Of a DNA stretch of 29,431 bases, positions 2-15,809 are shown piece after piece; the first letter of the stretch is position 1, and every line of letters starts with the position of its first letter. Under the pieces are notes generated by a model. The model searched no databases. It worked only from the letters and a program-made list of their open reading frames with translations, and was not told the origin of the DNA. The position numbers and the translations under genes were made by a program. This DNA is from a virus, in the IMG/VR virus record IMGVR_UViG_3300037847_008323, positions 1 to 29,431 of that record. One strand, 5' to 3'.

Positions 2-2416
2 TTCTCTACCAGAATCTAGGAATAACCCATTAACAGTTCCGCTTTCATCTTGTAATTGTAACCTAGCATACTTATTACCATTTTTACTAGTTCTTTTTAT
101 AATATCAGTAAGAACTCCAACAAATTTTACATTTGAAATATCAGGCATAAAATTGTCCCTATCGTCTATAATTTTGCCCGCTGATGTAAAATCATCTCCG
201 CAATCAAATATATCCCTCAGATTGTGTGAGTAACTATACCCAAGAAGTTTTTCTTCGAAATGCCAGTTAGCGTATTTTATATGACTCTTATTCATCTCAT
301 AAATATTTTTATAAGGCTCATATTTTTTCTTAAATGTTTGAAATCTACGATCAGCAAAAAGTATTCTGTTGTCATCTCCAACAGCTTTATTTTTATAACT
401 ATCGTGTATTGAAGTTAAAATATCAAAATTATACTTTTCACCCAACTCAATAAAGTTTCTTTTTTCTCTATCTGTTAATATATTAAATGTTTGAGCTTCA
501 AGCACTAGTCTGCACCTATTTGTAGAAACAAAAGAATCTAGAAGACCTGCTTGTATTAAGGCAGATAAAACCCCAATGTTGAGACCTGCTTGTTTAGCTG
601 AAATAAAAACCTCATATTTATTGTCAAAACAGTCTTCTCTAAATTCTAAAAGTGATAATAAAACTTTATCTGAAACTCCTTTTATCGAGTTCAAACCATA
701 CCTTATATCTTTGCCTTCAATTTTAAAATCAATATCAGATTTGTTAAGATCTGGTGGTAGAAGTTTTATATCGAAGTAAGAAAGCTCTTGGCTTATCTTT
801 GCTATTTCTTCATGAGAATTCGGTTCGTATTTAGCATACTTCAACAGACTTAAAAAGAACTCCTGAGGATGATTAAATTTAAGATAAATAGTTACTGCCG
901 CTAAATAAGCATAACTAATAGAGTGCGATTTATTAAAAGAATAGTTGGCAGAATCTTCGGCAACTTTCCATAGAACTTCACCTATCTTCGGGTCTAATTT
1001 ATTTTCTTTTATCTTATCCTCAATTTTTGCTTTCCAGGCTGGCATCTGGTCTACTTTTTTCTTGCCAATAATTCTTCTTAGTTGTTCAGACTCATCTAGG
1101 CTAAATCCTACCTTTACAGCCATCTTCATTAACTGCTCTTGGTACAAAGGAATGCCTCCAGTATAGCTCAATATATCATCAAAATATTCATGGACCGACT
1201 GGAACTCGCCACTTCTAACATAATCAGCATAAAGATCTTTAAAGTCCAAAGCTCCAGGTCTAGCGATAGCTACAACGGCTGATAGTTGCTCTAAGTTTTG
1301 AGGAGCTATTGTTTGGCACACTTTGAAGTTTGTCTCGGCTTCAATTTGAAACAATCCTTGAGGACATTTTAATATTTTTAATGCAGCATAAATTGATGGG
1401 TGGTGAGGGTCTATAGATGATTGTGTGATACCTAACTGTTGACAAACGTCATTTACAACTGATAGGGTTCTAAGGCCCAATATATCAAACTTCACACTTA
1501 AGCTTGCAACATCATTCATGTCATAGCCAGAAACTAAAGCCCCATCATTAGTTAGCTGTAGTGGCATTATATCATTTAAATCATAGTAAGATATTGAAAT
1601 ACCCGAAGGGTGAACCCCTGTGTTTTTATTTAGCCCTTCTAATTTTTTTGCTATCTCAAATGCTTTATTATATTTTTTTGCATGTTTTTTGAAAGACTCG
1701 CTTTCTTCATAAGCCACATCTAAAGACGCAACTTTACCAAAGTGCTTTGGTATGCTGTCACTAATTATGTTAACATTAGTCTCAGAAAGCTCTTCTACTA
1801 TCTTGCCACACTCTTTCATGCATAGCTTTCCGCTAAGAGTATTGAGTGTTAAAATTTTAGATGTTCTGCCTTTGAATTTTTCTTCAATATATTCTATGAC
1901 CTCAGCTCTTCTATCGTAAGATATATCGTTGTCAACATCAGCTAGTAAACTTCCGTCGAGATATATCTCGCCGTTATGTTCTATTTTTCTAGCACGGCTC
2001 TTGGATACAAATCTTTCAAAAAACAAATCATGTTCTATTGGGTCTATATCAGTCACCCCAATAACATATAGTACTAATGAACCCGCAGCACTACCCCTTC
2101 CAGCTCCAACTGGAATTTTATTTTCTATACAGAAGTTTATAATATCCCAGTTTAGTAAAACATAATCGATAAACCCAAGCTCTTTAAATATATCAAGCTC
2201 TTCTTTTAGTCTACCGTAATAAACTTCAGCGTTCTCTTTTGTATCTATGCCTTTTTGTTTAACTTTCTTAAAACATAGTTTTCTTAAGAACTGATAATTA
2301 CTTGCGTCTTCTGTTGCTCCAACCTCATCATAATATTTTTTTTCTATATTAATTTCTGGTAGCTTTACGCCAACTGGAAATGGAACATCGTAAGCTGTAT
2401 ATTCTTTTATGTTCAT
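2..2416 (-). CDS. dnaE: DNA polymerase III alpha catalytic core (DnaE-type), lacks PHP domain, partial
   Basis: Replicative C-family polymerase that extends primers at the phage fork. About 805 codons are visible and the C-terminus lies beyond the left edge. The ATG at 2416 overlaps the stop of the upstream exonuclease gene as ATGA. Visible motifs include GRGSAAGSLV near residues 106-115, followed by VTDIDPIEHDLFFERF, and the catalytic acidic pair in ADVDND (D162, D164). Further on are the third aspartate in FDILGLRT, YQEQLM, FNKSHSISYAYL, a helix-hairpin-helix stretch (YGLNSIKGVS) and the start of an OB-fold (FVGVLTDIIKRTSKNG). In bacterial DnaE a PHP domain of roughly 270 residues comes first. 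This protein begins directly at the start of the polymerase region, and the PHP domain is encoded separately two genes upstream. C-family assignment is very secure; the split is seen directly. Confidence 0.95.
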   Translation of the reverse strand, partial: MNIKEYTAYDVPFPVGVKLPEINIEKKYYDEVGATEDASNYQFLRKLCFKKVKQKGIDTKENAEVYYGRLKEELDIFKELGFIDYVLLNWDIINFCIENKIPVGAGRGSAAGSLVLYVIGVTDIDPIEHDLFFERFVSKSRARKIEHNGEIYLDGSLLADVDNDISYDRRAEVIEYIEEKFKGRTSKILTLNTLSGKLCMKECGKIVEELSETNVNIISDSIPKHFGKVASLDVAYEESESFKKHAKKYNKAFEIAKKLEGLNKNTGVHPSGISISYYDLNDIMPLQLTNDGALVSGYDMNDVASLSVKFDILGLRTLSVVNDVCQQLGITQSSIDPHHPSIYAALKILKCPQGLFQIEAETNFKVCQTIAPQNLEQLSAVVAIARPGALDFKDLYADYVRSGEFQSVHEYFDDILSYTGGIPLYQEQLMKMAVKVGFSLDESEQLRRIIGKKKVDQMPAWKAKIEDKIKENKLDPKIGEVLWKVAEDSANYSFNKSHSISYAYLAAVTIYLKFNHPQEFFLSLLKYAKYEPNSHEEIAKISQELSYFDIKLLPPDLNKSDIDFKIEGKDIRYGLNSIKGVSDKVLLSLLEFREDCFDNKYEVFISAKQAGLNIGVLSALIQAGLLDSFVSTNRCRLVLEAQTFNILTDREKRNFIELGEKYNFDILTSIHDSYKNKAVGDDNRILFADRRFQTFKKKYEPYKNIYEMNKSHIKYANWHFEEKLLGYSYSHNLRDIFDCGDDFTSAGKIIDDRDNFMPDISNVKFVGVLTDIIKRTSKNGNKYARLQLQDESGTVNGLFLDSGRE

Positions 2417-3045
2417 AACTCTAAATCAAATAATTGTTTTTTGAAAATTTTGAAGTTCATTTCGATATCGTACATAGCATCATGAAGTTTTTTAGGGTCA
2501 TGGGGTATGTTGTATTTTTTCAACAGGAAACCTTGAGATGTTTTTAATCCTCTTTCTCTATAATTTAAAAGTCTATATTGCCAACTTATAAAGTTTTCAC
2601 CGTTGTAAGGTATTTCTTTTGCGATGGCTGTGGCTAAAGCTTTGGTGTCAATAATTCTATTTACATACTCCTGATTTAAATCACGGGCCATAGCTCTACG
2701 CCAAACATCGACCATGTAAACATCAAACCCTAGTAAGTTTTGGCCTACAATTAAATTCCTTTCATCAAATAAAACTTCAGAGAACTCCTCCCAGACTTTG
2801 TTAGGTGCTAAGCTTTTTTTGTTATACTCTTTTTTAGAGAATCCTGTAACTTTAGCAGCTCCTTCAGAAACATTTAAGTTAGGCCAATGTATAAACCTAT
2901 CAGCTTTTGCAATTATTTTATCACCTTCAGCTAAAATCCAGGCAATCTGCCAAGGTCGGGATTTAATTAAATTTAAACCCTCAGTTTCAGTATCAAAAAT
3001 TACGTATCTCTGATTTTTATTAAATCTTAAGTTATTATTAGTCAT
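2413..3045 (-). CDS. DEDDh 3'-5' exonuclease (DnaQ/epsilon-like proofreading subunit)
   Basis: 210-aa exonuclease of the DnaQ fold, presumably the proofreading partner of the polymerase core next to it. The catalytic set is complete: D18 and E20 in FDTETEG, D108 in GQNLLGFD, then H188 and D193 in LHDAMYD, which is the DEDDh pattern. It starts 8 bases inside the PHP gene (ATGACTAA overlap) and its stop overlaps the polymerase start as ATGA, so the three are probably translated as a coupled unit. In PolC enzymes the exonuclease is inserted within the PHP domain of the same chain; here it is a free-standing gene placed between the PHP and polymerase genes. No beta-clamp-binding motif was confidently seen. 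Confidence 0.9.
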   Translation of the reverse strand: MTNNNLRFNKNQRYVIFDTETEGLNLIKSRPWQIAWILAEGDKIIAKADRFIHWPNLNVSEGAAKVTGFSKKEYNKKSLAPNKVWEEFSEVLFDERNLIVGQNLLGFDVYMVDVWRRAMARDLNQEYVNRIIDTKALATAIAKEIPYNGENFISWQYRLLNYRERGLKTSQGFLLKKYNIPHDPKKLHDAMYDIEMNFKIFKKQLFDLEL

Positions 3046-3775
3046 TAGTTAATTTTGCATAGGATTCAAAACAAAACTCATCGCTGCCAAAGTGGTCTAA
3101 GTTTGGGCAACTTAATGTAGATGGTCTGCCAAATTTTCTACCACAAATTATTTTATATGTTTGAAGAGCTTCTACGTCCTCTTTCTTTTCATAAAAAATG
3201 CTTTTTACATCTTGAGTCTTGTACTTATCCTTGCAATAATCGCTTACATATTTATTAAGTATTGAATCAAATGGTAGATTATTATTTTCTAACCAAAAGT
3301 TTGGTTTTATTTTTGTAAAATCAGGCACACAATTTTTTAAATAGAATTGATTTTGATGTATAAAAGAATCGTAAAATGGTATTACTAAATCTAAATTTTC
3401 TTCTTCCCAAATAGAGTTTAGATAGCTAAAATCTACTTTACCATTACCTTCAAGTTCTTTAAATGAGTAAATTTTATTTAAAAGCTTACAGCCTTGATCG
3501 TTTTTTGCTAAAATTATAATCTTATTATCAGAGTTATAATCGTCTTCTTCTACATCATTACAGCAAGTTAATCTAAGTCCAAATACTAAATGTATTCCAA
3601 GTTCTTTGCATGAGTTATGGCACTTTACAAAGCCAGTCATGGAGTCCTCAACCAATAAAAGAAACTTATTATCTTGGCTTTGGTTAAGTTCTAATATTTT
3701 TTCTATCGTTAGGATACTTTTACCTATAGAGTAAGTTGATTTAAATACTGGAAGCATTCCGTAAGGATACCTCAC
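3038..3775 (-). CDS. Stand-alone degenerate PHP domain of DnaE
   Basis: 245 aa that align by eye to the N-terminal PHP domain of DnaE. The block VFKSTYSIGKS sits where DnaE has its first histidine motif and VHSDYS-like loop. LLLVEDSMTGFVK matches the AITD..N.YG.VEFY-type strand-helix, GIHLVFGLRL matches GIKPI.G.E, and IIILAKNDQGCKLLNKIYS matches the LAKN..GY.NL..L.S block. The late KYKTQDVKSIFYEKKEDVEALQ region matches ND.HF....D...H. The HxH and following metal-binding histidines are missing, so phosphatase or exonuclease activity is unlikely and a structural role is favoured. Translation from 3775 uses GTG. An ATG at codon 7 (3757), preceded by GTGAGG, is an alternative start. It ends 8 bases inside the exonuclease gene. 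Confidence 0.8.
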   Translation of the reverse strand: MRYPYGMLPVFKSTYSIGKSILTIEKILELNQSQDNKFLLLVEDSMTGFVKCHNSCKELGIHLVFGLRLTCCNDVEEDDYNSDNKIIILAKNDQGCKLLNKIYSFKELEGNGKVDFSYLNSIWEEENLDLVIPFYDSFIHQNQFYLKNCVPDFTKIKPNFWLENNNLPFDSILNKYVSDYCKDKYKTQDVKSIFYEKKEDVEALQTYKIICGRKFGRPSTLSCPNLDHFGSDEFCFESYAKLTND

Positions 3776-3787
3776 ATTATAACGCTG

Positions 3788-4813
3788 TCAATAAGAATGT
3801 GCAGGACAACCCTCATAATATTTAATTTCATAAGTACAATCCTCTGGAACTAAATCTTCTGTAAAATCCTCTTCAAAATAAGAAGCTATAACATCTCCAT
3901 TTTTGTTTTTAACATGATAGTAAAAAAAATCAAACTTCATAGAACAGTGCCACTTTGGGCTACCATCTAGCTTAAGCTCTCCTTTTTCTTTTGCAAAACC
4001 ACAAAGAAGTTTTCCAGTAAAAGATCCGTCATTAGGAAAACCTTTATTGGCCGCAAAATTACACCTAGCATGTTTTTGAGAAAAATTATCTAAATACCCT
4101 TGTATTTCTGTCAACTGTAATTCAAAGCCATATAACTCTTCATTGTCCAAAGGTTTCATTTGCATTAGACCTGAGTTAGATGATTCTTTGTCTAAATCAA
4201 ACTTTAAAAACAAGAACTCACTTACTCTTTCTGAATACTCTGGAAACAAGTTTTTAACAGCTAAGCTATACATTAAATCTTGTAAATTGTCTGTCGCATC
4301 TTTACCTTTAAAGACAGACTTACTTGTTTTAAAATCTCTAATTAAAGCAAACTTTTTCTTTTTGTAGAGAAATAGTTTATCTATGAATCCTCTTATCTTA
4401 TAGCATACTTCGCCATCATTTTTGACTATTTCAAAATCTTTTTCAGAATACTCTTTTGTTGGTTTGCCTAAATCACCGCCAAAGAAATCGTAAGTTAGAC
4501 CGTTGTAGGTCATTTCTTTGATAAGCTCTATGTTTTCAGGGTCATCCACCTGCTCCTTAACAGCGTGTTTCATGACAAGCCTTTTTATAGACGGCACTGC
4601 AAAGATGTCTTGAGCTTTTACAATTTGATTGTAATATTTTTTTCTTTTCTTTTCTCCTAATAATTCAAAGATCAAGTGACATATTGAGCCTCTCTTCGCG
4701 CCATCATTACTTTTGTCGGGTAGATTTAGCTTGTATTTACACCAATAAAGCCAGGAGCAAGACTGTGCGGTCTTGATTCTACTTGCAGAAAGTGGTGTCT
4801 CAGGAGGCTTCAT
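3788..4813 (-). CDS. PD-(D/E)XK exonuclease, Cas4/RecB-like
   Basis: 341-aa nuclease of the RecB/Cas4 type, likely a 5'-3' end-resection nuclease for phage recombination or replication. Motifs in order are RGSICH (H46), GFID (D145), RDFKTSK (D160, K162) and LQDLMYSLA (Q178, Y182), the expected H...D...DxK...QxxxY layout. Cysteines at 19 and 25 near the N-terminus and at 251, 271 and 290 near the C-terminus could hold an iron-sulfur cluster as in Cas4 and AddB, but the spacing is not canonical and this is only a possibility. There is no CRISPR array or other cas gene nearby, so a CRISPR role is not supported. It overlaps the primase gene by 14 bases and is followed 12 bases later by the PHP gene. 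Confidence 0.85.
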   Translation of the reverse strand: MKPPETPLSASRIKTAQSCSWLYWCKYKLNLPDKSNDGAKRGSICHLIFELLGEKKRKKYYNQIVKAQDIFAVPSIKRLVMKHAVKEQVDDPENIELIKEMTYNGLTYDFFGGDLGKPTKEYSEKDFEIVKNDGEVCYKIRGFIDKLFLYKKKKFALIRDFKTSKSVFKGKDATDNLQDLMYSLAVKNLFPEYSERVSEFLFLKFDLDKESSNSGLMQMKPLDNEELYGFELQLTEIQGYLDNFSQKHARCNFAANKGFPNDGSFTGKLLCGFAKEKGELKLDGSPKWHCSMKFDFFYYHVKNKNGDVIASYFEEDFTEDLVPEDCTYEIKYYEGCPAHSY

Positions 4814-5867
4814 TGCTTAACACTAAGGAGTTTTTTATCTCTTTTTTAGTGAAGCAAGGAGTGTTGTTTTTAACAAATTTTAAAATATAATCTAATTGTT
4901 TTGATTGATCTATGTTTTCAGACAACCAATTTTTTAAATCATATTTTTCGACATGAGCATCACCAAAGTCATTATATGGTTTTGGTGGGAATTTTACACT
5001 TAATATATTTAAATCAAAGTATTGCGATAATTTTAAATAATTTTTAATCGCCGCAATAAATCCTCTATTTTCCTCACTGCTGTCGTCATTATTAGTAGAA
5101 ATAATAATCCGATTGATTGGCATACCACTAAGATAAGAAATAATATTGCTGTTAACAGACAAGCCAAAAATAACCAAAATGTTTTTAATACCTTGCTCAT
5201 ATAATGCTAATGCGTCTCCTATGCTTTCAACTAAAATAACTTCTTGTTTTTCGATAATAGATTCAGCTACTTCAGTTTTTAAATTAAATGCTGGATAAAC
5301 CCAACTGTTTCTCTTGCCTATATGTTTCCATTTAGGGTAATTATTGTTGTCATCTACTTTTCTCCCTGAAAAGCCAATAATTTGTTTTTCTCTATTATAT
5401 ATCGGAAAAACCATTCTTCTATACATTTTACCCACGCCAGCTAATCCCACATCAAATTTTTTCTGAGTTTCCTCTGATATTAATTTGTTATTGTAAAATT
5501 TATAGTTTGGGAATAAATTTTGCAGACAGTCTTCGGGGTAAATTTTTTCCATTTCTAATGTGGCCTTTTTCTTGTAAGTTTTTACATCACTAAGATTTAC
5601 TTTAGATAATACACTTTTTAAATCCGTGCTATTATCTTTTAAAGTGGCTTTTAGTAGAGCCTCAAACGGTTTAGATCCTTTGTTTTCGACAAAATCCATC
5701 CATACGCCTGTATTCTTGTAAATCTTTAAGGCTGTTTTATTGTCTCCATCCCTATAAAGAGCTTGTGTTCTCCAGTGATCTCCGCAATCAATCAGCTTGT
5801 AACCTAAGCTCTCTAGTATTTCCTGGAACTGCTCAGAACTGGTCAAAGTCTGGGATTGTTTCTTCAT
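4800..5867 (-). CDS. dnaG: DnaG-like primase with zinc-less N-terminal domain
   Basis: 355-aa primase that would lay RNA primers with the adjacent DnaB helicase. The N-terminal region (about 10-75) has the outline of a CHC2 zinc-ribbon (HWRTQALYRDGDNKTALKIY, then VWMDFVENKG), but the zinc ligands are absent apart from a single Cys28. The RNA-polymerase basal region is clear around 147-175 (YRRMVFPIYNRE, IIGFSGRKV). The TOPRIM domain follows with VILVESIGDALAL (E214) and IIISTNNDD (D261, D262). Length is shorter than bacterial DnaG because no long C-terminal helicase-binding domain is evident. The ATG at 5867 lies inside the dnaB gene (35-base overlap), and AAGGAG directly abuts it. No later Met would preserve the N-terminal domain. 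Confidence 0.88.
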   Translation of the reverse strand: MKKQSQTLTSSEQFQEILESLGYKLIDCGDHWRTQALYRDGDNKTALKIYKNTGVWMDFVENKGSKPFEALLKATLKDNSTDLKSVLSKVNLSDVKTYKKKATLEMEKIYPEDCLQNLFPNYKFYNNKLISEETQKKFDVGLAGVGKMYRRMVFPIYNREKQIIGFSGRKVDDNNNYPKWKHIGKRNSWVYPAFNLKTEVAESIIEKQEVILVESIGDALALYEQGIKNILVIFGLSVNSNIISYLSGMPINRIIISTNNDDSSEENRGFIAAIKNYLKLSQYFDLNILSVKFPPKPYNDFGDAHVEKYDLKNWLSENIDQSKQLDYILKFVKNNTPCFTKKEIKNSLVLSNEAS

Positions 5868-7350
5868 CTCCTTCTGTGTTTAAATCAACTTCACCATTTA
5901 GTCTTCTAGATATGTCTCTTAAGTCTCCGCACTCACTTATATTAAAATTATTAAAATTTAAATTAATTGAGTTTTTTCTTAAAGTATCATTGATTCTAAC
6001 TGGCTCAACTGCACCAGCAATATCACTGCCAAGGTGTCTTGCTTTTACATTTATTAATTTATGAGTGCCAAACTGTGGCCCCTCTAACTCTATCTCATCA
6101 GCTGTTTTGTTTCTTAATATAAACATGTGAGAACAGAATTGGGTTATCCTATCTGATAATGAAACAATTGATTCATCATCAACTATTGATTGAGCTGTTC
6201 TGTTATTTGTTATACCGTATCTATTGGACTGAACAGAAGTAATCATAGGTATGACAGGCTCTCCATCATATATAATTTCTTTTTGAACGCACTTCTTAAA
6301 TTTATCCACCATTTCTCCAACTATCTGCCACTCTGACTTGTTAGCGGATGATTCTGATGTTGTTTTAATATAATCAAAAGAGAAAACCATTTTATTTCCC
6401 CTGCCGACTTTTGAATAGTAAAACCTTTTAAGTGTGTTGACCATTGAATCAACGTCCATGCCACCTACATTATAATAATAAAACTTTAGTTCTTTTATTT
6501 TAGGCCAAACACTTCTCACCTTAGATACTACATCTTTGCCAGCTTGTCTCCATTTGCCGCTTTCTAGTAAGTGCATAGGCACACCAGACAGCGCTGCACA
6601 CTGTCTCATAATAAGCTCTTCCTTGCTCATTTCACCATTGTCAAAATGTAAAACAGGTACGTCATATTCAAGGCTAACTTTGGTAGAGTAATCCATACAA
6701 AACTGAGTTTTTCCAACTCCAGATCTAGCTACTATAACTGTTATGTTTCCTGCTCTTAATAATGAGCCATAAATCTCATTAACCTTGGGGTGTGGCCCCA
6801 TCATTCCAAATTCCGTTAATGGGTTATTGCCTCTATCTTCCACCAAATTTTCCATCTCTTCGTAGATGTTAACTGGAGTATCATTGCCCAATTCATAAAG
6901 ATTAATCCTGGAATTGTATATTGAATCAGAAGCCTCTACTATGTCTCTATAAGAAGCCTCTGGGGGCATTTTTTTCATCTTACGAGCTATTTGCTCAGAC
7001 GACGCTAATATCTCTCTCCTTATAGAATATTTTTTTAATTCTTTCGCTGTCTTTATAACGTTGCCTTTTGGAACTTTTCTTAAGGCTAATGATTTAATAT
7101 AATCAGATGGATTTAAGTTATCTTCAAAAGATAAGCCCACCTCATTTACTCTTTGAGCTATTATTATTTCATCTATATCATCACCAGCGTTTACAGCTTG
7201 CTCAACTATTCTAAAGATTGTTGAATTTAGTGAGCTTTGATCAGAATAAAAATCTGAAACAGATATGAAATTACATATCTCTGTTAATGACGCAGGATCT
7301 TTTAAAAGACCTGCTAGTAATTGTTTTTCTAATTCGTAAGAATATATCAT
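5833..7350 (-). CDS. dnaB: Replicative DNA helicase DnaB
   Basis: 505-aa hexameric 5'-3' helicase that unwinds the fork. The N-terminal domain starts with the typical LEKQLLAGLLKDP, and the RecA-like ATPase domain begins near residue 190. Walker A is ARSGVGKTQ (K214, T215), followed by VLHFDNGEMSKEEL in place of the usual LEM. Walker B is MVFSFDYIK (D326). The C-terminal part includes a TSVQSNR-type sensor motif where bacterial DnaB has LSQLNR. The final residues are acidic. The start is the ATG at 7350, overlapping the preceding 77-aa gene as ATGA. The downstream primase gene begins within its 3' end, fitting a helicase-primase pair. Confidence 0.93.
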   Translation of the reverse strand: MIYSYELEKQLLAGLLKDPASLTEICNFISVSDFYSDQSSLNSTIFRIVEQAVNAGDDIDEIIIAQRVNEVGLSFEDNLNPSDYIKSLALRKVPKGNVIKTAKELKKYSIRREILASSEQIARKMKKMPPEASYRDIVEASDSIYNSRINLYELGNDTPVNIYEEMENLVEDRGNNPLTEFGMMGPHPKVNEIYGSLLRAGNITVIVARSGVGKTQFCMDYSTKVSLEYDVPVLHFDNGEMSKEELIMRQCAALSGVPMHLLESGKWRQAGKDVVSKVRSVWPKIKELKFYYYNVGGMDVDSMVNTLKRFYYSKVGRGNKMVFSFDYIKTTSESSANKSEWQIVGEMVDKFKKCVQKEIIYDGEPVIPMITSVQSNRYGITNNRTAQSIVDDESIVSLSDRITQFCSHMFILRNKTADEIELEGPQFGTHKLINVKARHLGSDIAGAVEPVRINDTLRKNSINLNFNNFNISECGDLRDISRRLNGEVDLNTEGDEETIPDFDQF

Positions 7351-7580
7351 TCCTCTTCTGGTTTTTCATCTCTATTTATAAAGCCTTCTAAAGCTTTTAG
7401 AAGGGCCAGTTCGGTCATTGAGCAATCGAACCTTTGATATATTAGTGGTTGTCCATTTTCTGATGAAACAGCCATAATTATCCCTTTATATTTATCTATA
7501 CCTCCAGATAATTCATATAATTTATCTACCATCTCTGATGGAATGCTAAATTCTACTTCTACGTCATCGTCTTCAATCAT
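7347..7580 (-). CDS. Small acidic protein of unknown function
   Basis: 77 aa, not recognised. It is strongly acidic at both ends (MIEDDDVEVEF at the start and a DEKPEEE tail), with a short predicted helix (EMVDKLYELSGG) and strands between. No cysteine pair, membrane segment or nucleotide-binding motif is visible. It is joined by ATGA overlaps to the nuclease gene upstream and dnaB downstream, so it is almost certainly expressed and may serve the replisome, for example as a loader or inhibitor. That role is inferred only from position. Confidence 0.65.
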   Translation of the reverse strand: MIEDDDVEVEFSIPSEMVDKLYELSGGIDKYKGIIMAVSSENGQPLIYQRFDCSMTELALLKALEGFINRDEKPEEE

Positions 7581-7984
7581 AGGTATATTTCTTGATCCAC
7601 AAACAAAGATGCTGTTATCTCATCTTGTGGGTATATTTCTGCTAGTTTTATATTGTTACTTTTACAAAAAAGCAGTTTGTCCTCATCTCTTTTGAGTTGA
7701 TCGCAGTACTTAAACCTGTTTTTATGAAAAAATTTAACATATTTTGTGTGCTGCTCTCCTTGTACTTCCACTGCTATTTTTTTATTAGCATTATAAAAGT
7801 CTAAAGTCAATCTACTTCCGACAACTCTAAATTCTTCGAATACAATATCATGTATCCAAAAAGGTTGCAAAAATTGTTTTACCCTAGTTTGAAATTTGCT
7901 TCTACTGGGTTTATCCCAGTTTATGAGGTATTTTTTTGCGTTTTTTAGATTTCTTTCTCGACCATAGACATCAATAAACTTCAT
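7577..7984 (-). CDS. Small PD-(D/E)XK endonuclease-like protein (VSR/DUF559-like)
   Basis: 135 aa. The central part LTLDFYNANKKIAVEVQGEQH has the D...(8-12)...ExQ arrangement (D62, E73, Q75) of small PD-(D/E)XK nucleases such as very-short-patch repair or DUF559 proteins. These families follow it, as here, with a helix and the K/R-x-x-D-x-x-K region (DQLKRDEDKLLFCKSNNIKL). The N-terminal 45 residues are basic and aromatic and may bind DNA. It sits between recA (TAATG overlap) and the 77-aa gene (ATGA overlap), which suggests a repair, recombination or junction-processing job. A homing endonuclease origin is possible, but the tight coupling to neighbours argues for a resident replication gene. 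Confidence 0.7.
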   Translation of the reverse strand: MKFIDVYGRERNLKNAKKYLINWDKPSRSKFQTRVKQFLQPFWIHDIVFEEFRVVGSRLTLDFYNANKKIAVEVQGEQHTKYVKFFHKNRFKYCDQLKRDEDKLLFCKSNNIKLAEIYPQDEITASLFVDQEIYL

Positions 7985-9096
7985 TATGACATCTCTTGTA
8001 TATATTTTTTAAAATAATCAAAAAGAAACTTACATAGATCTGGGTTATCTTCTATGTGCTTAAAAACTTTATTCATACCTTGAATCTTCTCTGGGAACTC
8101 AAGCTTATTCTCTACTAAAAGATCTTTAAAATCGTCTGTTGTACTTATCCAAGCGCCACTCTTTTTGATAAATTCAAAAGACTCTAAAAGGTTTACTATC
8201 TCTTTTTCAATCCATATAGATGTGCCGCCTTTTCTGCCATATCTTATAGGATATGTTATTCTTTGATTTGTTTTTTCATTAGGAGATTTTTTTACCGTAA
8301 CCTTAGCATGCACTCCAATAATTGGATTTGTTTTTGGGTCGTGCTTTTTAGATGGGTCTTCTAAAATTTGATCTCCAGCAAATCTAGGATCGTACTCAAT
8401 AATCCAGTTTGCAAAGTGTAGAAGTGCGTTGCCTCCCGTCGCTGTAGTTTGTCTGACAGGGGCTTTGCTGTAAGGATCGAGTTTTATGTCAGCTCTAACT
8501 TGAGAGATGAAAATAGCCATATGGCCTCTTTTGGCTAACTTAATTGACATCTTTTTCATAAAGGTAGCAGCTACAACTGCGCCCCCTGCAACTTTTACAG
8601 AATCCTCATACCCTTTAGCTTTATCATTTTTTAGAATTAAGCCATCAACAGAATCCAAAACAAAACAATACTTTATTCCTGTCTCATTATGGTCAATCAG
8701 TTTTGTTATTATCTCAGCAACTGCTTCATAAATATTACTTTCAAAAACAAAACAAGAGCCGTTTTCCCACTCACTGTGTTCTGTTACAAAATTAAGCCCA
8801 GATCTTTCTTTCATTTCTGGAGATAATCTGCCCTCAGCTTTGATATAAAAACCTCTTGAGTTAGGTACAGTTTCCAAAAAGTTTTTCATTACCTGTAGTG
8901 ACTCAGATGTTTTACCGCCTTCGTTCATACCTGTAAACCTATGCAACCCAGGCCCAAAGCCACCTCCAAGTTCTACGTCAAACTGTAACGAGCCACTGGA
9001 AACTTTGTAGTTTTCTTCTACTTCAAAATTATAATGATCTTCTTTATTTGTCTTCAAGAAATTCTCTAATATTTTTTCTGGATTTATATCACTCAT
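7984..9096 (-). CDS. recA: RecA/UvsX-family recombinase
   Basis: 370-aa strand-exchange ATPase for homologous recombination and recombination-dependent replication. Walker A is TGMNEGGKTS (K62, T63). The catalytic glutamate is in YIKAEGRLS (E88), matching the DAE motif of RecA. Walker B is YCFVLDSVDGL (D148), then ISQVRADI (Q199, R201), and the L2 loop is TTATGGNALLHFANWI, close to the bacterial TTTGGNALKFYAS. These favour a RecA-like rather than strongly T4 UvsX-like protein, though phage versions intergrade. The start overlaps the preceding gene by 8 bases, and the stop overlaps the nuclease start as TAATG. No LexA box was identified upstream. Confidence 0.92.
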   Translation of the reverse strand: MSDINPEKILENFLKTNKEDHYNFEVEENYKVSSGSLQFDVELGGGFGPGLHRFTGMNEGGKTSESLQVMKNFLETVPNSRGFYIKAEGRLSPEMKERSGLNFVTEHSEWENGSCFVFESNIYEAVAEIITKLIDHNETGIKYCFVLDSVDGLILKNDKAKGYEDSVKVAGGAVVAATFMKKMSIKLAKRGHMAIFISQVRADIKLDPYSKAPVRQTTATGGNALLHFANWIIEYDPRFAGDQILEDPSKKHDPKTNPIIGVHAKVTVKKSPNEKTNQRITYPIRYGRKGGTSIWIEKEIVNLLESFEFIKKSGAWISTTDDFKDLLVENKLEFPEKIQGMNKVFKHIEDNPDLCKFLFDYFKKYIQEMS

Positions 9097-9424
9097 CTAA
9101 AAAGTCTTTAATTGTTTTTTTCTTAACTTTTATTTTAGCATCTTTGCCAAATTTTTCACCTATATTATACTTCGGATATTTAGAAAAGTCTACTCTAAAA
9201 TTAAAAGCTCTGAATTTTTCATCTAATGTGCTTTTTAGTTTTGGACTTGTCAAGTATGCTAAAGAATCAAATTTGTTTTCAAAAGATATACAGGACATAA
9301 ATTCTTGAGAATATCTCTCTATGAGATCATTAAGCATTTTCATTTCCCTAGCGAAAAAAGGTCTTCTGCCTTTTTCTGGTACGTCAAGCAAGCGAAAAAG
9401 TATTTCTCTTTTATTTAAAAGCAC
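9089..9424 (-). CDS. Conserved-looking protein of unknown function at the replication/glycan junction
   Basis: 111 aa, not recognised. The N-terminal half is helical with mixed charge (KREILFRLLDVPEK, REMKMLNDLIERY), and the C-terminus is very basic followed by an acidic tip (KIKVKKKTIKDFLDE). Translation begins at a GTG at 9424 whose first base is the last base of the gmd stop codon (TAGTG), and it ends 8 bases inside recA. It is the first gene after the glycan block and precedes recA, so a recombination accessory role, such as a mediator protein, is conceivable but unsupported by any motif. Confidence 0.6.
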   Translation of the reverse strand: MLLNKREILFRLLDVPEKGRRPFFAREMKMLNDLIERYSQEFMSCISFENKFDSLAYLTSPKLKSTLDEKFRAFNFRVDFSKYPKYNIGEKFGKDAKIKVKKKTIKDFLDE

Positions 9425-10491
9425 TAATCAATATCCAACAATTTCAAGTCATTATCAACCATCTTTTTTACTAAACCTGCAAAATTAGTTTTAGGCTTCC
9501 ACCCAAGCTCTTCTCTGGCTCTGCTAGAATCACCCCATAATAAATCAACCTCTGCTGGTCTATAAAATTGTGGATCAACTTCCATTAGTAGATCATCTCC
9601 ATGAAAATATTTGCAATCTTCATCTACTCCTTCCCATCTGCACATTGACCTATGAAATCCTGCTGAGTTAAATGCTTCTTCTACAAACTCTCTAATTGTG
9701 TGTGTTTGATCGGAGGATAAAACATAGTCATCAGGTGTTTTTCTCCAGACATTAGTCCAGTATTTTTCTTGATTTAACATTCTCCAGATACCATCCATAA
9801 AATCCTCTGAATCGCTCCAGTCTCTTTTTGAATCTATGTTACCAAGTCTTAATGGCTCAAAAGATTTTTTATTGGCATACTCATGACTAATACGCGCAAC
9901 ATTCTGTGTAATTTTTCTTGTTACAAACTCAACTCCTCTTCTAACTCCCTCGTGATTAAAAAGCCATCCTTGAATTGCATATAATCCATAAGAATCTCTA
10001 TAAACTTTTACCAAATGTCTGGCAGAGCATTTAGAAGCACCATACGGACTCCTGGGTCTAAGAGGATGCTCTTCATTCTGCGGTTCTGTTACAACATCCC
10101 CAAATTCCTCAGAGGAACCTGCATTATAATATCTGCATTCTGGACAGTGCCTTTTTATAGCCTCAAGTTGATGTAAAACAGCTAAAGCATTTGTTTCCAT
10201 ATGCTGAGTAGGCATTTTCCAGCTTGTACCTACAAAAGAATTTGCTGCAAAATTTATAAAATAATATGGTTTATGCTCAGCTATAACTCTGTCTACATTC
10301 TGAGGATCGGTTACATCTAAATCAATGAGAAAAAATCTAGGATTATCTAATAAATGAAGAATGTTGTCATGATTTTTGACGCTTAGTCTTCTGGCTCCTC
10401 CAATAATAGTGTGTGTGGTATTTTCTAAAAGGTAGTCTACCATATTGCTACCATCTTGTCCTGTTACTCCTGTTACTATTATCTTTTTCAT
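9424..10491 (-). CDS. gmd: GDP-mannose 4,6-dehydratase
   Basis: Short-chain dehydrogenase that converts GDP-mannose to GDP-4-keto-6-deoxymannose, the precursor of fucose, rhamnose or perosamine nucleotides. Visible are the NAD(P) motif TGVTGQDGS, NAGSSEEFGDV at the catalytic Ser/Glu site, SPYGASK with the Tyr/Lys pair, the family signature FNHEGVRRGVEFVTRKIT, and LGNIDSKRDWSDSEDFMDG. Length (355 aa) is normal. I place the start at the ATG at 10491, which overlaps the stop of the upstream gene as ATGA and directly precedes the KKIIVTG strand. An in-frame ATG at 10518 would add 9 residues inside the upstream gene. No reductase or aminotransferase that would use the product is in the window, so the host or genes elsewhere must finish the pathway. 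Confidence 0.92.
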   Translation of the reverse strand: MKKIIVTGVTGQDGSNMVDYLLENTTHTIIGGARRLSVKNHDNILHLLDNPRFFLIDLDVTDPQNVDRVIAEHKPYYFINFAANSFVGTSWKMPTQHMETNALAVLHQLEAIKRHCPECRYYNAGSSEEFGDVVTEPQNEEHPLRPRSPYGASKCSARHLVKVYRDSYGLYAIQGWLFNHEGVRRGVEFVTRKITQNVARISHEYANKKSFEPLRLGNIDSKRDWSDSEDFMDGIWRMLNQEKYWTNVWRKTPDDYVLSSDQTHTIREFVEEAFNSAGFHRSMCRWEGVDEDCKYFHGDDLLMEVDPQFYRPAEVDLLWGDSSRAREELGWKPKTNFAGLVKKMVDNDLKLLDID

Positions 10492-10931
10492 TTGTACTGT
10501 GCTATAAAGTCGCTGCAAATCCCTATGCAGTCAGTTAATTTGTCATTCGATGCTTCAGGCATGACAGCGATACTATTTTTTATTGGTTGATTTCCAGGAA
10601 ATGCCCATATGTAATTTTTACTAGTAAGAGTTATGTCATCTCTCTGATGCCAAAAATAATGTATATTATAACCTCCTTTTTTTGTTAAATATTGGAGTTG
10701 AACTGCTGCATCTAAATTTTTAGCATGACACCACAAAGATGGGTTTTTAAGATAAACTGGGTCAATCAAATCAACTGGTCCATCATGACCTAAATATAAA
10801 AAATTATCTTTACCCCATAAATCTATCTCTACATCAAAGCCTTTATCTAAAGCTTCATTAATATACTGGACTGTATTTTCTCTTTCTGGCTGCTTGCCAT
10901 GAAGATTGCCTCTGTGGGATATTAAAATCAT
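10488..10931 (-). CDS. GDPD/PI-PLC-like phosphodiesterase-fold protein
   Basis: 147 aa with the core signature of the glycerophosphodiester phosphodiesterase family: SHRGN (H6, R7), ERENT (E18, N19), FDVEIDLW (E35, D37) and LGHD (H49). That covers the metal-binding and catalytic residues, but the protein is only about half the usual 240-residue length, so the second half of the barrel looks reduced. Small relatives of this type occur in surface-polysaccharide clusters. Its substrate is unknown; a glycan-linked phosphodiester is a reasonable guess. It abuts the HAD-nucleotidyltransferase gene with no gap and overlaps gmd by 4 bases. Confidence 0.72.
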   Translation of the reverse strand: MILISHRGNLHGKQPERENTVQYINEALDKGFDVEIDLWGKDNFLYLGHDGPVDLIDPVYLKNPSLWCHAKNLDAAVQLQYLTKKGGYNIHYFWHQRDDITLTSKNYIWAFPGNQPIKNSIAVMPEASNDKLTDCIGICSDFIAQYK

Positions 10932-12290
10932 TTAATTGTTTTTTAAAAAGAAATCTAAATCTTCTGGAGTACCTAATCCCCACATATTTTCTATGTCAAA
11001 TGTTTTTACTTTTTTACCATCCTGTATAGCTTCATTAAAAACAGGGCAAACATAAAATTCATTATTATGGCGGATGTTTTTTTCTATCATTTGTTCAGCG
11101 TATTTTACGTAATCAGAGCCTTTTTTCCAGTAATAAATTCCCACTGTAGCAATATCAGAAATAGGTTTTTTCTCTGCTACCTCTGTTACATCACCTTCAT
11201 CATTTACTTTTGCAAAAGACCATTTAGGGTGTGTAGATTTAAAAGTCAAAATGCCAGCATCTGCATCTTGCTCTTGCATTTTATATAAAAATTCGCTTGT
11301 GTCCCACTGAACATACTGGTCAGAGTTAGCTATGAGTAAAGGTTGATCTGTATTTATAATTTCTTTACTTAAAAGTGTGGTGCAAGCTGCTCCTTCGGTC
11401 ATCCCGTCAACTTCTATAACATTACATTTTGGAGTTATGAGATTTAAAAGAGTATCTAGGTTATATTCTTTTCTATGTTCTTTTTGCACTATAAAAGTAT
11501 GAGGACTTTCGCAGTTTAAATTTTCTACAACGACTTGAATCATAGGTTTGCCTCTAACCTCAATTAACGGCTTTGGAAAAGTATACCCAGCGGCCTGGAA
11601 TCGACTACCAGCTCCAGCCATTGGTATCAAAACATTTAAATTGTTATCTTGCCAGCGTGTATTCATAAGTTCTTTTTTTATATTTAATTTTGATTTTACT
11701 TTTTGTATTGTTAAGTCGGATGGGTCTTTAACTCTTAAGATGTTAGCTCCTGATCTTTGAGCTGCAAGTAATCCATGGGGAGAATCTTCTACAATCAATG
11801 TTTGTTCTGACAGCTTTCCAAACTCTATCATGGTTTGCCAATACATCTCTGGATGAGGCTTTGATTTAGAGACATCTTCATTCGATAATATATAATCGAA
11901 AAAATCTATAAGGCCAAGTTTTTGCAAAACGCCTTCTAGGGAGCTTCTTATAGAATTTGAGCAACAAGCTATTTTTAAATTATGATTAGATAAAAATTCA
12001 AATAACTTTACTAAATTAGAATCTTTTCCAATTTCATTTATTTTTTGCGCCGTTATCTTTTGTTTTTCTAACCAAACATTTTCATGCTCAGATTTTGGCA
12101 GTCCTTTTTTCTCAGTTAGTATGTTTAACTTGTCTTTTGTTTTTAATCCGTCATATATATTTAGATGTTCGCTATAAGAAATAGAAAACTTAGGGTCTAC
12201 ACTTTCTAAAGCTTCATTTAAAGCGTTGAAGTGCATTTCTTTAGCTCTTACTAAAACACCATCTAAATCAAATATAATTAGTTCAATCAT
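10932..12290 (-). CDS. Fused HAD phosphatase/mutase and nucleotidyltransferase
   Basis: 452-aa two-domain enzyme. Residues 1-200 are a beta-phosphoglucomutase-like HAD hydrolase with IIFDLDGVLV (D8, D10), CCSNS (S110), KSKPHPE (K143) and LIVEDSPHG (D168). Residues 215-452 are a sugar-phosphate nucleotidyltransferase with LIPMAGAGSRF, FPKPLIEV (K239), LIANSDQYV (D323) and a later GIYYWKKGSDY stretch. Such a fusion could interconvert a sugar phosphate and then activate it as an NDP-sugar. The substrate cannot be read from sequence. It lies between the 269-aa putative glycosyltransferase (8-base overlap) and the GDPD-like gene. Confidence 0.85.
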   Translation of the reverse strand: MIELIIFDLDGVLVRAKEMHFNALNEALESVDPKFSISYSEHLNIYDGLKTKDKLNILTEKKGLPKSEHENVWLEKQKITAQKINEIGKDSNLVKLFEFLSNHNLKIACCSNSIRSSLEGVLQKLGLIDFFDYILSNEDVSKSKPHPEMYWQTMIEFGKLSEQTLIVEDSPHGLLAAQRSGANILRVKDPSDLTIQKVKSKLNIKKELMNTRWQDNNLNVLIPMAGAGSRFQAAGYTFPKPLIEVRGKPMIQVVVENLNCESPHTFIVQKEHRKEYNLDTLLNLITPKCNVIEVDGMTEGAACTTLLSKEIINTDQPLLIANSDQYVQWDTSEFLYKMQEQDADAGILTFKSTHPKWSFAKVNDEGDVTEVAEKKPISDIATVGIYYWKKGSDYVKYAEQMIEKNIRHNNEFYVCPVFNEAIQDGKKVKTFDIENMWGLGTPEDLDFFLKNN

Positions 12291-13092
12291 TCCATAAATG
12301 CTTATTCAAAAAAACTGATTTATAGTCATCCCACATATCATTTTCCATAAAGAAAAATTTATATAAACAGTGATTGTTGATTAAAGAATTTTCGCCAGTT
12401 ATATAAGTTGCCAAGCTTTCGGTTCTTTGATTCTTAAAAAGCTCGCCAGAAAATTCATTTACCTTACAGCTTATAGGCCAACCCTCTTTGCATTTTTTAT
12501 TATATTCGCTATCTTTTTTAAGGTATTCAAAAACCTTGTCATACATTGTAGATATAACATCTATATTTTCTGAAGAGCTATAAAACCAGTGATCTGAAGC
12601 GCCAGCATTTGTCTGATCCCAGTAAGCTTGGTAAATTTTACTCATGTCTTTGTTGGGATCAAAATTTAAGTGACTAGTTTTGTTTAGACCTTGTTTATGA
12701 TGTCCTACATCAAACCTGCTAACTAAAACAACATCATACTTAAACCCAGCTTCTGTTTCATACTTTTGTTTAAGTTGTATTGATTTTTTTCTAGAGAATA
12801 AGAAACTCAAGGTTTTAAATAGATCGCCTTGAGCCATTGTTGTGTTGTTAGTAAAATTTATGTCTTTAAATAAATCTTGCTCCCTCTTAAAATCTTTCTG
12901 GGGTTCAAAGACATACGCTAAAGGATTGAATATATCTACTATCTCTTGTTCTATATCATCATCCCAGGAGTGAATAAAAACATCTGCACCTTTAAGTTCT
13001 TTTAAGAGTGTAGAAAACTTTTCTAAATAAGCCCCGTCAGCTTTTACGCTGCTACCTCTAGCTAAACCATGTAAACATGCAGCTACCTTCAT
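12283..13092 (-). CDS. Putative glycosyltransferase-like protein of a surface-glycan cluster
   Basis: 269 aa, family not firmly recognised. The opening MKVAACLHGLARG, then DVFIHSWDDD and, near residue 150, YDVVLVSRFDVG, resemble the strand and Asp-containing loop layout of WavE-like and related capsule proteins, where an R-x-D segment follows a hydrophobic strand. The gene a few positions upstream at 15794-16474 has the same general architecture (STWD, then LKWRSDY). No signal peptide or transmembrane segment is seen, so it is probably cytoplasmic. It is separated from the transaldolase gene by one base. Alternatives are a nucleotide-diphospho-sugar transferase fold with unknown donor, or a non-catalytic relative. 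Confidence 0.55.
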   Translation of the reverse strand: MKVAACLHGLARGSSVKADGAYLEKFSTLLKELKGADVFIHSWDDDIEQEIVDIFNPLAYVFEPQKDFKREQDLFKDINFTNNTTMAQGDLFKTLSFLFSRKKSIQLKQKYETEAGFKYDVVLVSRFDVGHHKQGLNKTSHLNFDPNKDMSKIYQAYWDQTNAGASDHWFYSSSENIDVISTMYDKVFEYLKKDSEYNKKCKEGWPISCKVNEFSGELFKNQRTESLATYITGENSLINNHCLYKFFFMENDMWDDYKSVFLNKHLWND

Positions 13093-13093
13093 T

Positions 13094-13777
13094 TTAATGT
13101 GTAAATGTTAATTTACTTCCATCATAGAAAAATAATTGAGACTTTTTAATAGACGTTTCTAAATCATCAAAGTTCATTCTATCTAATTTTTTCATCACTC
13201 CATCTGGGATAGTTATGATGTCAGCGCCCCATAACTCAGCCTCTACAATAGAAAAAACTCTTTGACACCCAGCATATAAAATTTGTTTATTCGCGTTATC
13301 TCCTATGATAGATCTAGCCTTATCAAAAATTGGCTTAGCATATGTCCCAGAATCCGAAAGACCTCCAGCAAAAAGTGATATGATAGATTTTGTTTCGTCA
13401 CTGACAGCATTACATGCTTCAATAGTTTGCTGTTCTGTATGTATGCAGGTCACATTTACTTTAAAGCCATCTTTGCTTAAACCCTGCACTAAATCTTTAG
13501 TGGATTCTCCATTAGGTAGAACGATTGGTATTTTTACATAAACATTGCTAGCTTTCTGACATATAACCTCTGCTTGTTTTATAATAGAGCTTGAGGATGG
13601 ACCCGTCACCTGAAAAGAAATAGGTTTTCCTTTTGAGCTTTCAATAGATTTATTTATAAAAGAATCATAATCAGTTACCTCTGCTTCTGCTACGTAAGAT
13701 GTGTTTGTAGTAACTCCATCTACTAAGTTTATATGTTCTTCTATATTTACTCCGTCGTAATACCTTTTAACTTTCAT
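13094..13777 (-). CDS. Transaldolase-family protein (TalC/fructose-6-phosphate aldolase type)
   Basis: 227 aa, the short TIM-barrel form. VDGVTTNTS is the first family block, the Schiff-base lysine is K82 in VYVKIPIV, and NVTCIHT, SLFAGGLSDSG and GADIITIP follow in the usual order. The SPFVGR-type block reads SLFAGGL, so the arginine that helps bind the substrate phosphate in transaldolase B is replaced by glycine (G139); R173 in AGCQRVF is kept. Cyanophages carry talC to redirect carbon flux, but here the gene sits inside a glycan cluster, between two sugar-activating genes, so a specialised role in making an unusual sugar precursor is equally likely. It overlaps the 680-aa gene by 11 bases. 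Confidence 0.85.
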   Translation of the reverse strand: MKVKRYYDGVNIEEHINLVDGVTTNTSYVAEAEVTDYDSFINKSIESSKGKPISFQVTGPSSSSIIKQAEVICQKASNVYVKIPIVLPNGESTKDLVQGLSKDGFKVNVTCIHTEQQTIEACNAVSDETKSIISLFAGGLSDSGTYAKPIFDKARSIIGDNANKQILYAGCQRVFSIVEAELWGADIITIPDGVMKKLDRMNFDDLETSIKKSQLFFYDGSKLTFTH

Positions 13778-15809
13778 TTTTAATTAATTTGTTTAGCCAA
13801 ACAATAGCCATTAACAGTGCAAAAACTCCATGATCGGCACTAACTTTCATTCTAAATGGTACAAATCGTATAAAATACATGCTCATATAGAATATTCCTT
13901 TATTTATAACAGTGTTTTTGTCATCGTTTAATATGACTGACCACTGAGATATTATATCGTTTGTTAGCTGGTTATCTAAATCTAATTTAAAATATTTATC
14001 TATACATTCAAATTCGTCATCGTTCTTAGAAATGTTTATATCAATATTTTTCCATTCATTGAATTTAGAGAAGATTGATTGGCACATTTTACCTAAATCA
14101 AGCTCTGCTGCATCAAAAATGTCTGACCCATCCATATCTATCAACTTTATTGAAGAGCCATCCCACATTACATTTTCTAGGGTAAAATCTCCATGAATCG
14201 GTCTAATAAAATTAGGTTTTACTAAATGTTTGTCTATCGTAAGTAAAGTTTTGTTAAGTCCAAAATATTTTACATTATTTATATAAATAAATTCATTAAA
14301 AATTATTTTATTTAAATTTAAATCTTTACTATAAGAATCGAACTTACTAAAAATTTTATTTTCATAATGTCTTTCTAACCAAGATATTCCATCTATTTCC
14401 TTTCGTAGGGAGTAGACGTTTTTATTCATACCATCTAGCAATTTATTTATAGCTGATTTTTTTTCATCTAAACAGGATATGTCAGCAACAGTTTTATGCT
14501 GATCTAAATACTCCATGTCAAAGCTAAAATCAAAATCTGTATCTTTTTGTTTGGTTATCTTTGGTGTTGAATGTGGCCACAGAAAAGAGAATCTTTCTAA
14601 ATCCCTTACTTGCCGTTTTAATTTATCATAATGTACAATATCGTCTTTTTGTTTTATGATATGTTTCCTAACCGTATTATTAGACAGCAGGTAAGTCTTA
14701 GCAAAAGAGCCGCCATCAAATGTTTTAATTATTTCTGTATCGCTTTCTTCGTAGTATTTAGATATTTCTAAATCTTTTATTCCTTTATCTCGAATTAATT
14801 CCAGGCTATTTGCTTGATTTGTAAATATTTTTGATGGCTTGTGATCGTTTATTAAGAGCCTGGGTCCAGCAGGTAATCCCATGACTAGCTCGTCATATTG
14901 TATTCCTATTTTTGATAGAAGAACTGCGGTTTCATCTCTATATTTTTCGCTCCTTGCGGTTGTTAAGATTACCTTATGTCCTAGTATTTTGAGTTTTGAT
15001 AAATTTTCAAATCCATCTATTGGTTTATTTGTTTCTATATCAGTTGTTGAGTGAGGGTCGTGATATATTAAAACTCCATCTATGTCACAAAATATAGAGC
15101 ATTTTTTTCTAAGGTTGTTTACATGATTCTCTAACATTTTTACATCCCCATAAAAAGATGCACTTTTGGTGTTAGTAACCTTTAGATTTTTATCTTGCTT
15201 TAACAAGTCTTGAAGGCAATCGGAAACATATACATGATCTTTATTAAAATTATTTTCTATCTCTTTAAAATAAACGCACCCTATTATACCTTTAACATTA
15301 TAGTCATCGCTTGAAATTCTTTCTTTCTCACAAATCATTTTTATATTAGAATTTTTATCTAATACAACTTTGGACCAATTCATCCACTCATCTTTAGTTA
15401 TCTCCCAAGTTGGAATAATGCAGTCATGCTTGTTTTTTAAAGCATTTTTAAATATTTCGTCTACATTTAAACTATGATCACAATCGCAGACTATTGATGG
15501 GCCTTTAATATCTGCTAGCATGATGCCGTTATTCAATGTTTGATACGGACCTTTTGTTTTTTTAGGGATAACTATAACCTCAACAAATTCATATGATAGT
15601 TTTTCTTTTATTTTAGAAGAAACATTGTAAACTTTTTCTTGTTCAGCTGTACATATAAAATAAATTTTATTTATTTCGTTTATCCATTTTTTAAATGGCT
15701 CGAATGTAGTCTCTATAAAAGTAATATCACCTATTTTTAAAAAAGGTTTAAAAGTGCCTCCAAATCTTACAGCCTCTCCAGCCACTGGAAATATTAGATT
15801 GATGCCCAT
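13767..15809 (-). CDS. Three-domain fusion: nucleotidyltransferase, HAD phosphatase, APH-type kinase
   Basis: 680 aa with three recognisable enzyme domains. Residues 1-225 are a nucleotidyltransferase with FPVAGEAVRFGG, a Lys at KPFLKI and a metal-binding acidic pair in VCDCDHS (D109, D111). Residues 236-340 are a HAD phosphatase with IFCDIDGVL (D242, D244), LTTAR and LINDHKP. Residues 355-680 are a protein-kinase-fold sugar or choline kinase of the APH family with FDGGSFAKTYLL as nucleotide loop, FDMEYLD hinge, IHGDFTLENVMWD (D541, N546) and LIDMDGSD (D558). Together they could phosphorylate, dephosphorylate and NDP-activate one metabolite, as LicA/LicC or HddA/GmhB/HddC do as separate proteins. 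The start ATG at 15809 has a credible AAGGA site 7 bases upstream, rare in this window. Confidence 0.85.
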   Translation of the reverse strand: MGINLIFPVAGEAVRFGGTFKPFLKIGDITFIETTFEPFKKWINEINKIYFICTAEQEKVYNVSSKIKEKLSYEFVEVIVIPKKTKGPYQTLNNGIMLADIKGPSIVCDCDHSLNVDEIFKNALKNKHDCIIPTWEITKDEWMNWSKVVLDKNSNIKMICEKERISSDDYNVKGIIGCVYFKEIENNFNKDHVYVSDCLQDLLKQDKNLKVTNTKSASFYGDVKMLENHVNNLRKKCSIFCDIDGVLIYHDPHSTTDIETNKPIDGFENLSKLKILGHKVILTTARSEKYRDETAVLLSKIGIQYDELVMGLPAGPRLLINDHKPSKIFTNQANSLELIRDKGIKDLEISKYYEESDTEIIKTFDGGSFAKTYLLSNNTVRKHIIKQKDDIVHYDKLKRQVRDLERFSFLWPHSTPKITKQKDTDFDFSFDMEYLDQHKTVADISCLDEKKSAINKLLDGMNKNVYSLRKEIDGISWLERHYENKIFSKFDSYSKDLNLNKIIFNEFIYINNVKYFGLNKTLLTIDKHLVKPNFIRPIHGDFTLENVMWDGSSIKLIDMDGSDIFDAAELDLGKMCQSIFSKFNEWKNIDINISKNDDEFECIDKYFKLDLDNQLTNDIISQWSVILNDDKNTVINKGIFYMSMYFIRFVPFRMKVSADHGVFALLMAIVWLNKLIKNES

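Follow-up and report, generated by a model that had tools for sequence, protein, structure and literature searches.

The DNA analysed here is a linear virus fragment of 29,431 bases from IMG/VR (IMGVR_UViG_3300037847_008323), and the whole of this stretch is referred to as the window. Three minus-strand genes lie in a row at the left end of the window. The first encodes a PHP-domain protein, the second a DEDDh exonuclease and the third a polymerase of the DnaE type that lacks a PHP domain (Table 1). The original prediction, made from the sequence alone, described consecutive overlapping genes for these three parts of a DNA polymerase III, and this was borne out, as the open reading frames (ORFs) are present as described and all three have Pfam matches. 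The PHP ORF is real but had been taken to be 3038-3775, and its start is probably ATG 3757 and not the in-frame upstream GTG 3775, because conservation in the relatives begins at that Met. Use of GTG 3775 would add six residues that are not conserved among the relatives. The polymerase is truncated by the window edge, and 805 aa are present compared with 856 aa in L001, a relative that is 97 % identical. By coordinates, the PHP and polymerase genes of the window share one reading frame. Rfam gave no match anywhere in the window.

Table 1. Positions of the features discussed, in the window unless a relative is named
Feature	Position	Strand	Basis or remark
PHP-domain protein, standalone, 239 aa (probable start)	3038..3757	-	Pfam, profile-profile search, AF2 model, VIA
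DEDDh 3'-5' exonuclease, proofreading-type, 210 aa	2413..3045	-	Pfam RNase_T, phrog_192, catalytic residues
DnaE-type DNA polymerase III alpha core lacking PHP, 805 aa in the window	2..2416	-	Pfam, TIGR00594, L001 model
8-nt overlap of PHP stop and exonuclease start, ATGACTAA	3038..3045	-	Sequence
4-nt ATGA overlap (TTATGA) of exonuclease stop and polymerase start	2413..2416	-	Sequence
PD-(D/E)XK nuclease	3788-4813	-	
DnaG-like primase	4800-5867	-	
DnaB-like helicase	5833-7350	-	
77-aa ORF	within the upstream run 3788..9096	-	
Nuclease-like	7577-7984	-	
RecA/UvsX-like	7984-9096	-	
IMP dehydrogenase/GMP reductase-like gene	L162 3377-4351, L168 3102-4070, L173 3202-4179, L178 3383-4342, L195 3219-4172, L220 3347-4330		By eye
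SET-domain-like gene	L116 3833-4354, L117 3851-4363, L129 3848-4351, L144 3839-4342		By eye

The relatives scanned were 80 with 64-97 % identity, together with further sets found via distant members and via alignment. In all, 190 loci were counted, among which contigs repeat, and the non-redundant set consists of 119 polymerases that are distinct at 95 % identity (here called lineages), the window included. The PHP, exonuclease and polymerase genes are separate and in the same order in every relative with sufficient upstream sequence, down to ~50 % identity, and the loci without a PHP or exonuclease gene are ones cut at a contig end. A survey of related phages for this gene order had been suggested, and the order proved common to all 119 lineages. 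The junctions were compared in 118 lineages. PHP and exonuclease genes overlap or abut in 79, are 1-60 nt apart in 10 and >60 nt apart in 29, and the corresponding numbers for the exonuclease and polymerase genes are 97, 6 and 15, with a -4 overlap in 65/118. The reading-frame offsets between the three genes differ by lineage, and eight combinations were found. The dN/dS values (0.045-0.089 for PHP, 0-0.068 for the exonuclease and 0.016-0.044 for the polymerase) indicate strong purifying selection. As all complete relatives share this layout, the frame offsets vary and dN/dS is low, the three-gene organisation is not a sequencing error but is stable and selected, and the frameshift joining the genes that the original prediction had raised can be set aside. 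In a tree, 27 split polymerases form one group with 100/100 support, consistent with the three-gene split having arisen once. The sister group of this clade is not settled by the tree, in which the fused references are on long branches. The distance matrices for PHP and polymerase are correlated (r 0.89), a correlation that shared ancestry alone could explain.

The genes that lie between members of the trio include cupin and FkbM methyltransferase genes and unnamed ORFs. A homing endonuclease acting as the wedge was considered, but none of the intervening genes was recognised as a homing enzyme. A cupin gene is found between the exonuclease and polymerase genes, with overlapping ends, in L007 (5649-5999), L021 (5664-6014) and L025 (5664-6014), and is of the mannose-6-phosphate isomerase C-terminal type (tested in L007). 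An FkbM-type methyltransferase gene is found between the same two genes in L011 (5379-5993; tested there) and L025. Between the PHP and exonuclease genes, a gene of ~320 aa in six relatives resembles IMP dehydrogenase/GMP reductase and one of ~170 aa in four relatives resembles a SET-domain protein, both by eye only (Table 1). In L218 (4992-7976) and L243 (4953-8030), the polymerase gene is broken again, near profile position 500 and near 100-126, and this second break is possibly an intron or a further split.

Profile and fold methods were needed to place the PHP protein. Searches of PDB using phmmer with the single PHP and exonuclease sequences found no relatives, and a tblastn search of cultured phages with the PHP protein gave no hits, and neither did a DNA search. 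However, the ORF at 3038-3775 matches Pfam PHP with an E value of 1.5e-7, better than the curated cut-off, and in a profile-profile search the protein matched DnaE PHP domains (probability 97 %, E value 8e-11). An AlphaFold2 (AF2) model with a mean predicted local distance difference test score (pLDDT) of 91 was aligned by VIA-align to residues 7-259 of Thermus aquaticus (Taq) DnaE (Z 21.4) and residues 6-248 of Escherichia coli DnaE (Z 21.3), with a root-mean-square deviation of 2.7-2.9 and 222-226 residues aligned. Standalone PHP phosphoesterases and other PHP proteins score only Z ~12 against this model. The protein is contiguous, with 226/239 residues aligned, and spans the whole DnaE PHP domain including the C-terminal part. 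The original prediction would have been undermined had the 245-aa version of this protein failed to match PHP profiles or the PHP fold, and it matches both.

The metal site of an active PHP proofreader, HHDHEH[C/H]DH, was not found in the PHP proteins of this clade. The E. coli ligand numbering and the list of nine ligands in E. coli, Taq and PolC were taken from PMC3666897. Eight of the nine positions could be mapped by profile-profile alignment (position 7 was unmapped), and none is canonical in the clade. In E. coli numbering, R10 is replaced by V, L or I, H12 by K, D19 by K or R, F44 by a gap or D, D69 by R or K, H83 by K (104/104), D201 by S or T and R203 by Y, L or F. Ligand positions 2, 3, 5 and 6 are mostly Lys or Arg, namely K6 (92/104), K13 (98/104), R62 (87/104) and K79 (104/104). 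Barros et al. reported that Arg is the commonest substitute at most of the lost PHP ligand positions, where it replaces the charge of the metal (PMC3666897). As the metal ligands have been replaced, the PHP protein of the clade is predicted to be non-catalytic and structural and to bind metal no longer. PHP is reported to be one of the major elements of the Pol III structure, with its integrity mattering for stability and activity, and loss of the PHP metal is reported to accompany the presence of a separate proofreading exonuclease (PMC3666897).

The polymerase ORF (2-2416) matches Pfam DNA_pol3_alpha (2e-60), DNA_pol3_finger and HHH_6. It passes the NCBIfam DnaE model TIGR00594 with 450.8 bits, above the cut-off, versus only 32.7 bits for the PolC model PRK00448. 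Palm (Pol-beta-like), fingers, HhH and OB domains are present, and the catalytic D160, D162 and D311 are invariant in 119/119 lineages. A PHP domain at the N-terminus of the same chain was not found, and all complete relatives encode PHP in a gene of its own. A model of the L001 polymerase (pLDDT 86.8) aligns to E. coli DnaE 269-910 and Taq DnaE 284-1121, and residues ~742-847 of this model, after the HhH, match OB folds (Z ~11). Full-length relatives end at ~856 aa, the equivalent of Taq DnaE 1121, and the chain appears to stop after the OB domain, which bears on whether a C-terminal tau-binding domain is present. As the PHP protein corresponds to E. coli DnaE 6-248 and the polymerase to 269 onward, the models indicate that the two proteins together cover DnaE as far as the OB domain, apart from ~20 linker residues. 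This places the break at the PHP/polymerase boundary, where the original prediction had put it. The polymerase is also matched by phrog_11165, a polymerase profile of 782 positions, with the match beginning near the start of the polymerase, and this group may hold further PHP-less polymerase chains.

The exonuclease ORF (2413-3045) matches Pfam RNase_T (1e-16) and phrog_192, 'DNA polymerase exonuclease subunit' (2.7e-22). D18, E20, D108, H188 and D193 are invariant in 119/119 lineages, and the chain stops 17 residues past the motif III Asp in all of them. We infer that this protein does the proofreading.

The wider genome content was sampled using the contigs of 20 relatives, which are 84-211 kb in length and for which completeness is not established. 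Each includes one PolIII alpha, and Pfam PHP was found in 14/20, one copy each. Family A (PolA) and family B (PolB, PF00136) polymerases gave no match in these 20 contigs. The beta clamp (PF02768) also gave no match in them (L036, L118, L121 and L198 included), despite the presence of a C-family polymerase.

The DnaE1-type alpha subunits of E. coli, T. aquaticus and Mycobacterium tuberculosis have the same PHP fold, the same palm-fingers-HhH-OB order and the same catalytic aspartates. However, their PHP domain is in the chain, whereas here it has its own gene and the polymerase apparently ends after the OB domain (Taq DnaE 1121). PolC of Gram-positive bacteria likewise has PHP, a DEDDh exonuclease and a polymerase in that order, and the locus had been described as the PolC logic laid out in discrete genes. 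This holds for the order of the parts, but otherwise the description is loose, as PolC is one chain with the exonuclease inside PHP, whereas here PHP is contiguous and the genes are separate. The parallel is weakened further by the gaps of >60 nt, often occupied by unrelated genes, between PHP and exonuclease (29/118) and between exonuclease and polymerase (15/118). Membership of the PolC group was ruled out by the contiguous PHP, the separate exonuclease gene and the DnaE-like score of the polymerase (450.8 vs 32.7 bits). The epsilon subunit of E. coli (DnaQ) is likewise a separate DEDDh proofreader beside a polymerase with a dead PHP, but it has a PHP-binding C-terminal tail and the exonuclease of the clade does not.

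Among phages, Pseudomonas phage PB1 and Serratia phage Hera have a gene for a DEDDh/epsilon-type exonuclease directly upstream of, and overlapping, dnaE, as here. However, their PHP region is inside the polymerase chain (Pfam PHP shown for Hera). In the DnaEs of cultured or sequenced phages that were inspected (MA9V-3, Sundance, Nanodon, Cyrano, Mx1, Hera, Sebata, AR1086-1, Phabba, S-CoN_Ph10, Curly, PB1 and two gut phages), the polymerase chain itself has ~200-360 residues ahead of the palm, and Pfam PHP is found there in those tested. The statement that PHP and polymerase are not separated in known DnaE enzymes therefore stands for every cultured phage DnaE inspected, although splits inside the core of phage DnaE were already known (PMC7824862). 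The DnaE of Cellulophaga phage phiST (gp44/gp45), Rossellomorea phage phiT1 and Bacillus phage KLEB27-3 is also split into two genes, but the break is within the palm/polymerase core and the N-terminal half consists of PHP and palm. The jumbo phages of group 2.2 have a two-part minimal Pol III, split into nucleoside triphosphate-binding and template-binding parts that are encoded by distant genes, with no other Pol III domains and with a family B polymerase alongside (PMC7824862). This too is a C-family polymerase in separate proteins, but there the core is split beside a family B enzyme, whereas here the break is at the PHP/palm boundary and family B was not matched in the 20, possibly incomplete, contigs. 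PHP has been called universally present (PMC12926913) and strictly conserved (PMC3666897) in C-family/bacterial replicative polymerases, and the open-access library searched yielded no description of PHP encoded as a protein separate from the polymerase. In Bacteroides phage BS-TP1 (L262 1289-5803), dnaE is apparently split in the palm, and its two halves flank a Dda-like helicase gene.

We consider it likely that the replicase of this large group of uncultured phages consists of three separately translated proteins that form a heterotrimeric polymerase-proofreader, with a non-catalytic PHP subunit docking in trans. The overlapping genes encode a PHP-less DnaE-type polymerase, an intact DEDDh exonuclease and, separately, the PHP domain. 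This last protein would dock at the site occupied by the covalent PHP domain in DnaE, where it would stabilise the polymerase and perhaps help to hold the exonuclease, and the three would act jointly. Both the formation of this complex and the structural role of PHP in trans are what we infer from the evidence above. Several points weigh against this interpretation. PHP evolves faster than the other two genes, and other genes often part it from the exonuclease gene (>60 nt in 29/118). In E. coli, epsilon binds PHP through a C-terminal tail, which the exonuclease of the clade lacks, so any contact between exonuclease and PHP must differ here. Finally, as the long contigs may be incomplete, these phages may encode another polymerase.

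The main rival is that the polymerase works without PHP and that the PHP protein has been repurposed, for example to bind the epsilon subunit or DnaE of the host and interfere with host replication. This is possible but not likely. It fits the greater variability of PHP, its position, which does not always adjoin the exonuclease or polymerase gene, and the basic character of the former metal site, which could bind another ligand. However, PHP keeps its order with the other two genes in all lineages, no part of the DnaE PHP domain, the C-terminal part included, is missing from the protein, and PHP integrity is important for the stability and activity of Pol III (PMC3666897). A more speculative idea, which we think improbable, is that PHP is an exchangeable subunit and the polymerase is fully active only when PHP is bound, with the former metal pocket and its conserved Lys/Arg residues (K6, K13, R62 and K79) binding an anionic ligand or DNA and thereby regulating replication.

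It is still less probable that PHP is an epsilon-like adaptor with the exonuclease as its sole partner and that the pair visits the polymerase loosely. The PHP and exonuclease genes do overlap or abut in many lineages, and the E. coli PHP domain binds epsilon (4gx8, 4gx9 chimera; PMC3919608), but the exonuclease here is without the epsilon tail and the E. coli PHP forms an integral part of the structure of the polymerase itself (PMC3666897). We regard it as very improbable that the split is an artefact, whether through a frameshift introduced into a fused gene during sequencing or assembly or through programmed frameshifting that gives one chain. Though PHP and polymerase happen to lie in the same frame in the window, the genes are separate in every complete relative, each has its own start with the usual ATGA-type overlaps, unrelated genes intervene in many lineages, and the eight combinations of frame offsets, which are not conserved, argue against a programmed frameshift. 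Post-translational joining of PHP and polymerase by a split intein, as in the intein-split cyanobacterial polymerase (DnaE) sequences that are known (PMC3919608), can be dismissed, as Pfam finds no Hint/intein domain where the PHP chain ends or where the polymerase chain begins, and the chains end at domain boundaries.

The three-gene arrangement shows that the covalent link between PHP and polymerase is dispensable. PHP is often catalytically dead in C-family replicases and its role is incompletely understood. Here it has been excised from the chain yet retained under strong selection across a whole phage clade. Separately purified PHP, exonuclease and polymerase could be mixed to determine the share of a dead PHP in stability, synthesis and proofreading, which is hard with a fused enzyme. 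The arrangement also adds one more type of split to the known phage Pol III splits, which lie inside the polymerase core.

Upstream of the PHP gene, the minus-strand region 3788..9096 contains replication and recombination genes that are all co-oriented (Table 1). On the other side of the trio, a gene encoding 810 aa is located directly 3' of the polymerase gene in L001 (8583-11015) and L036 (8574-11006), and in L001 it was identified using Pfam as encoding a ClpA/ClpB-like AAA+ protein (L001 only). Elsewhere in the window, 9424-23937 is a large sugar/glycan cluster, which includes genes for a GDP-mannose dehydratase, a HAD/nucleotidyltransferase fusion, a carbamoyltransferase, a UDP-GlcNAc 2-epimerase and probable glycosyltransferases. 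A gene of the transaldolase/fructose-6-phosphate aldolase family (13094-13777, 227 aa) lies within this cluster. A pair of genes for the large and small subunits of ribonucleotide reductase is found at 24977-27594, and the large subunit is short, at 548 aa.

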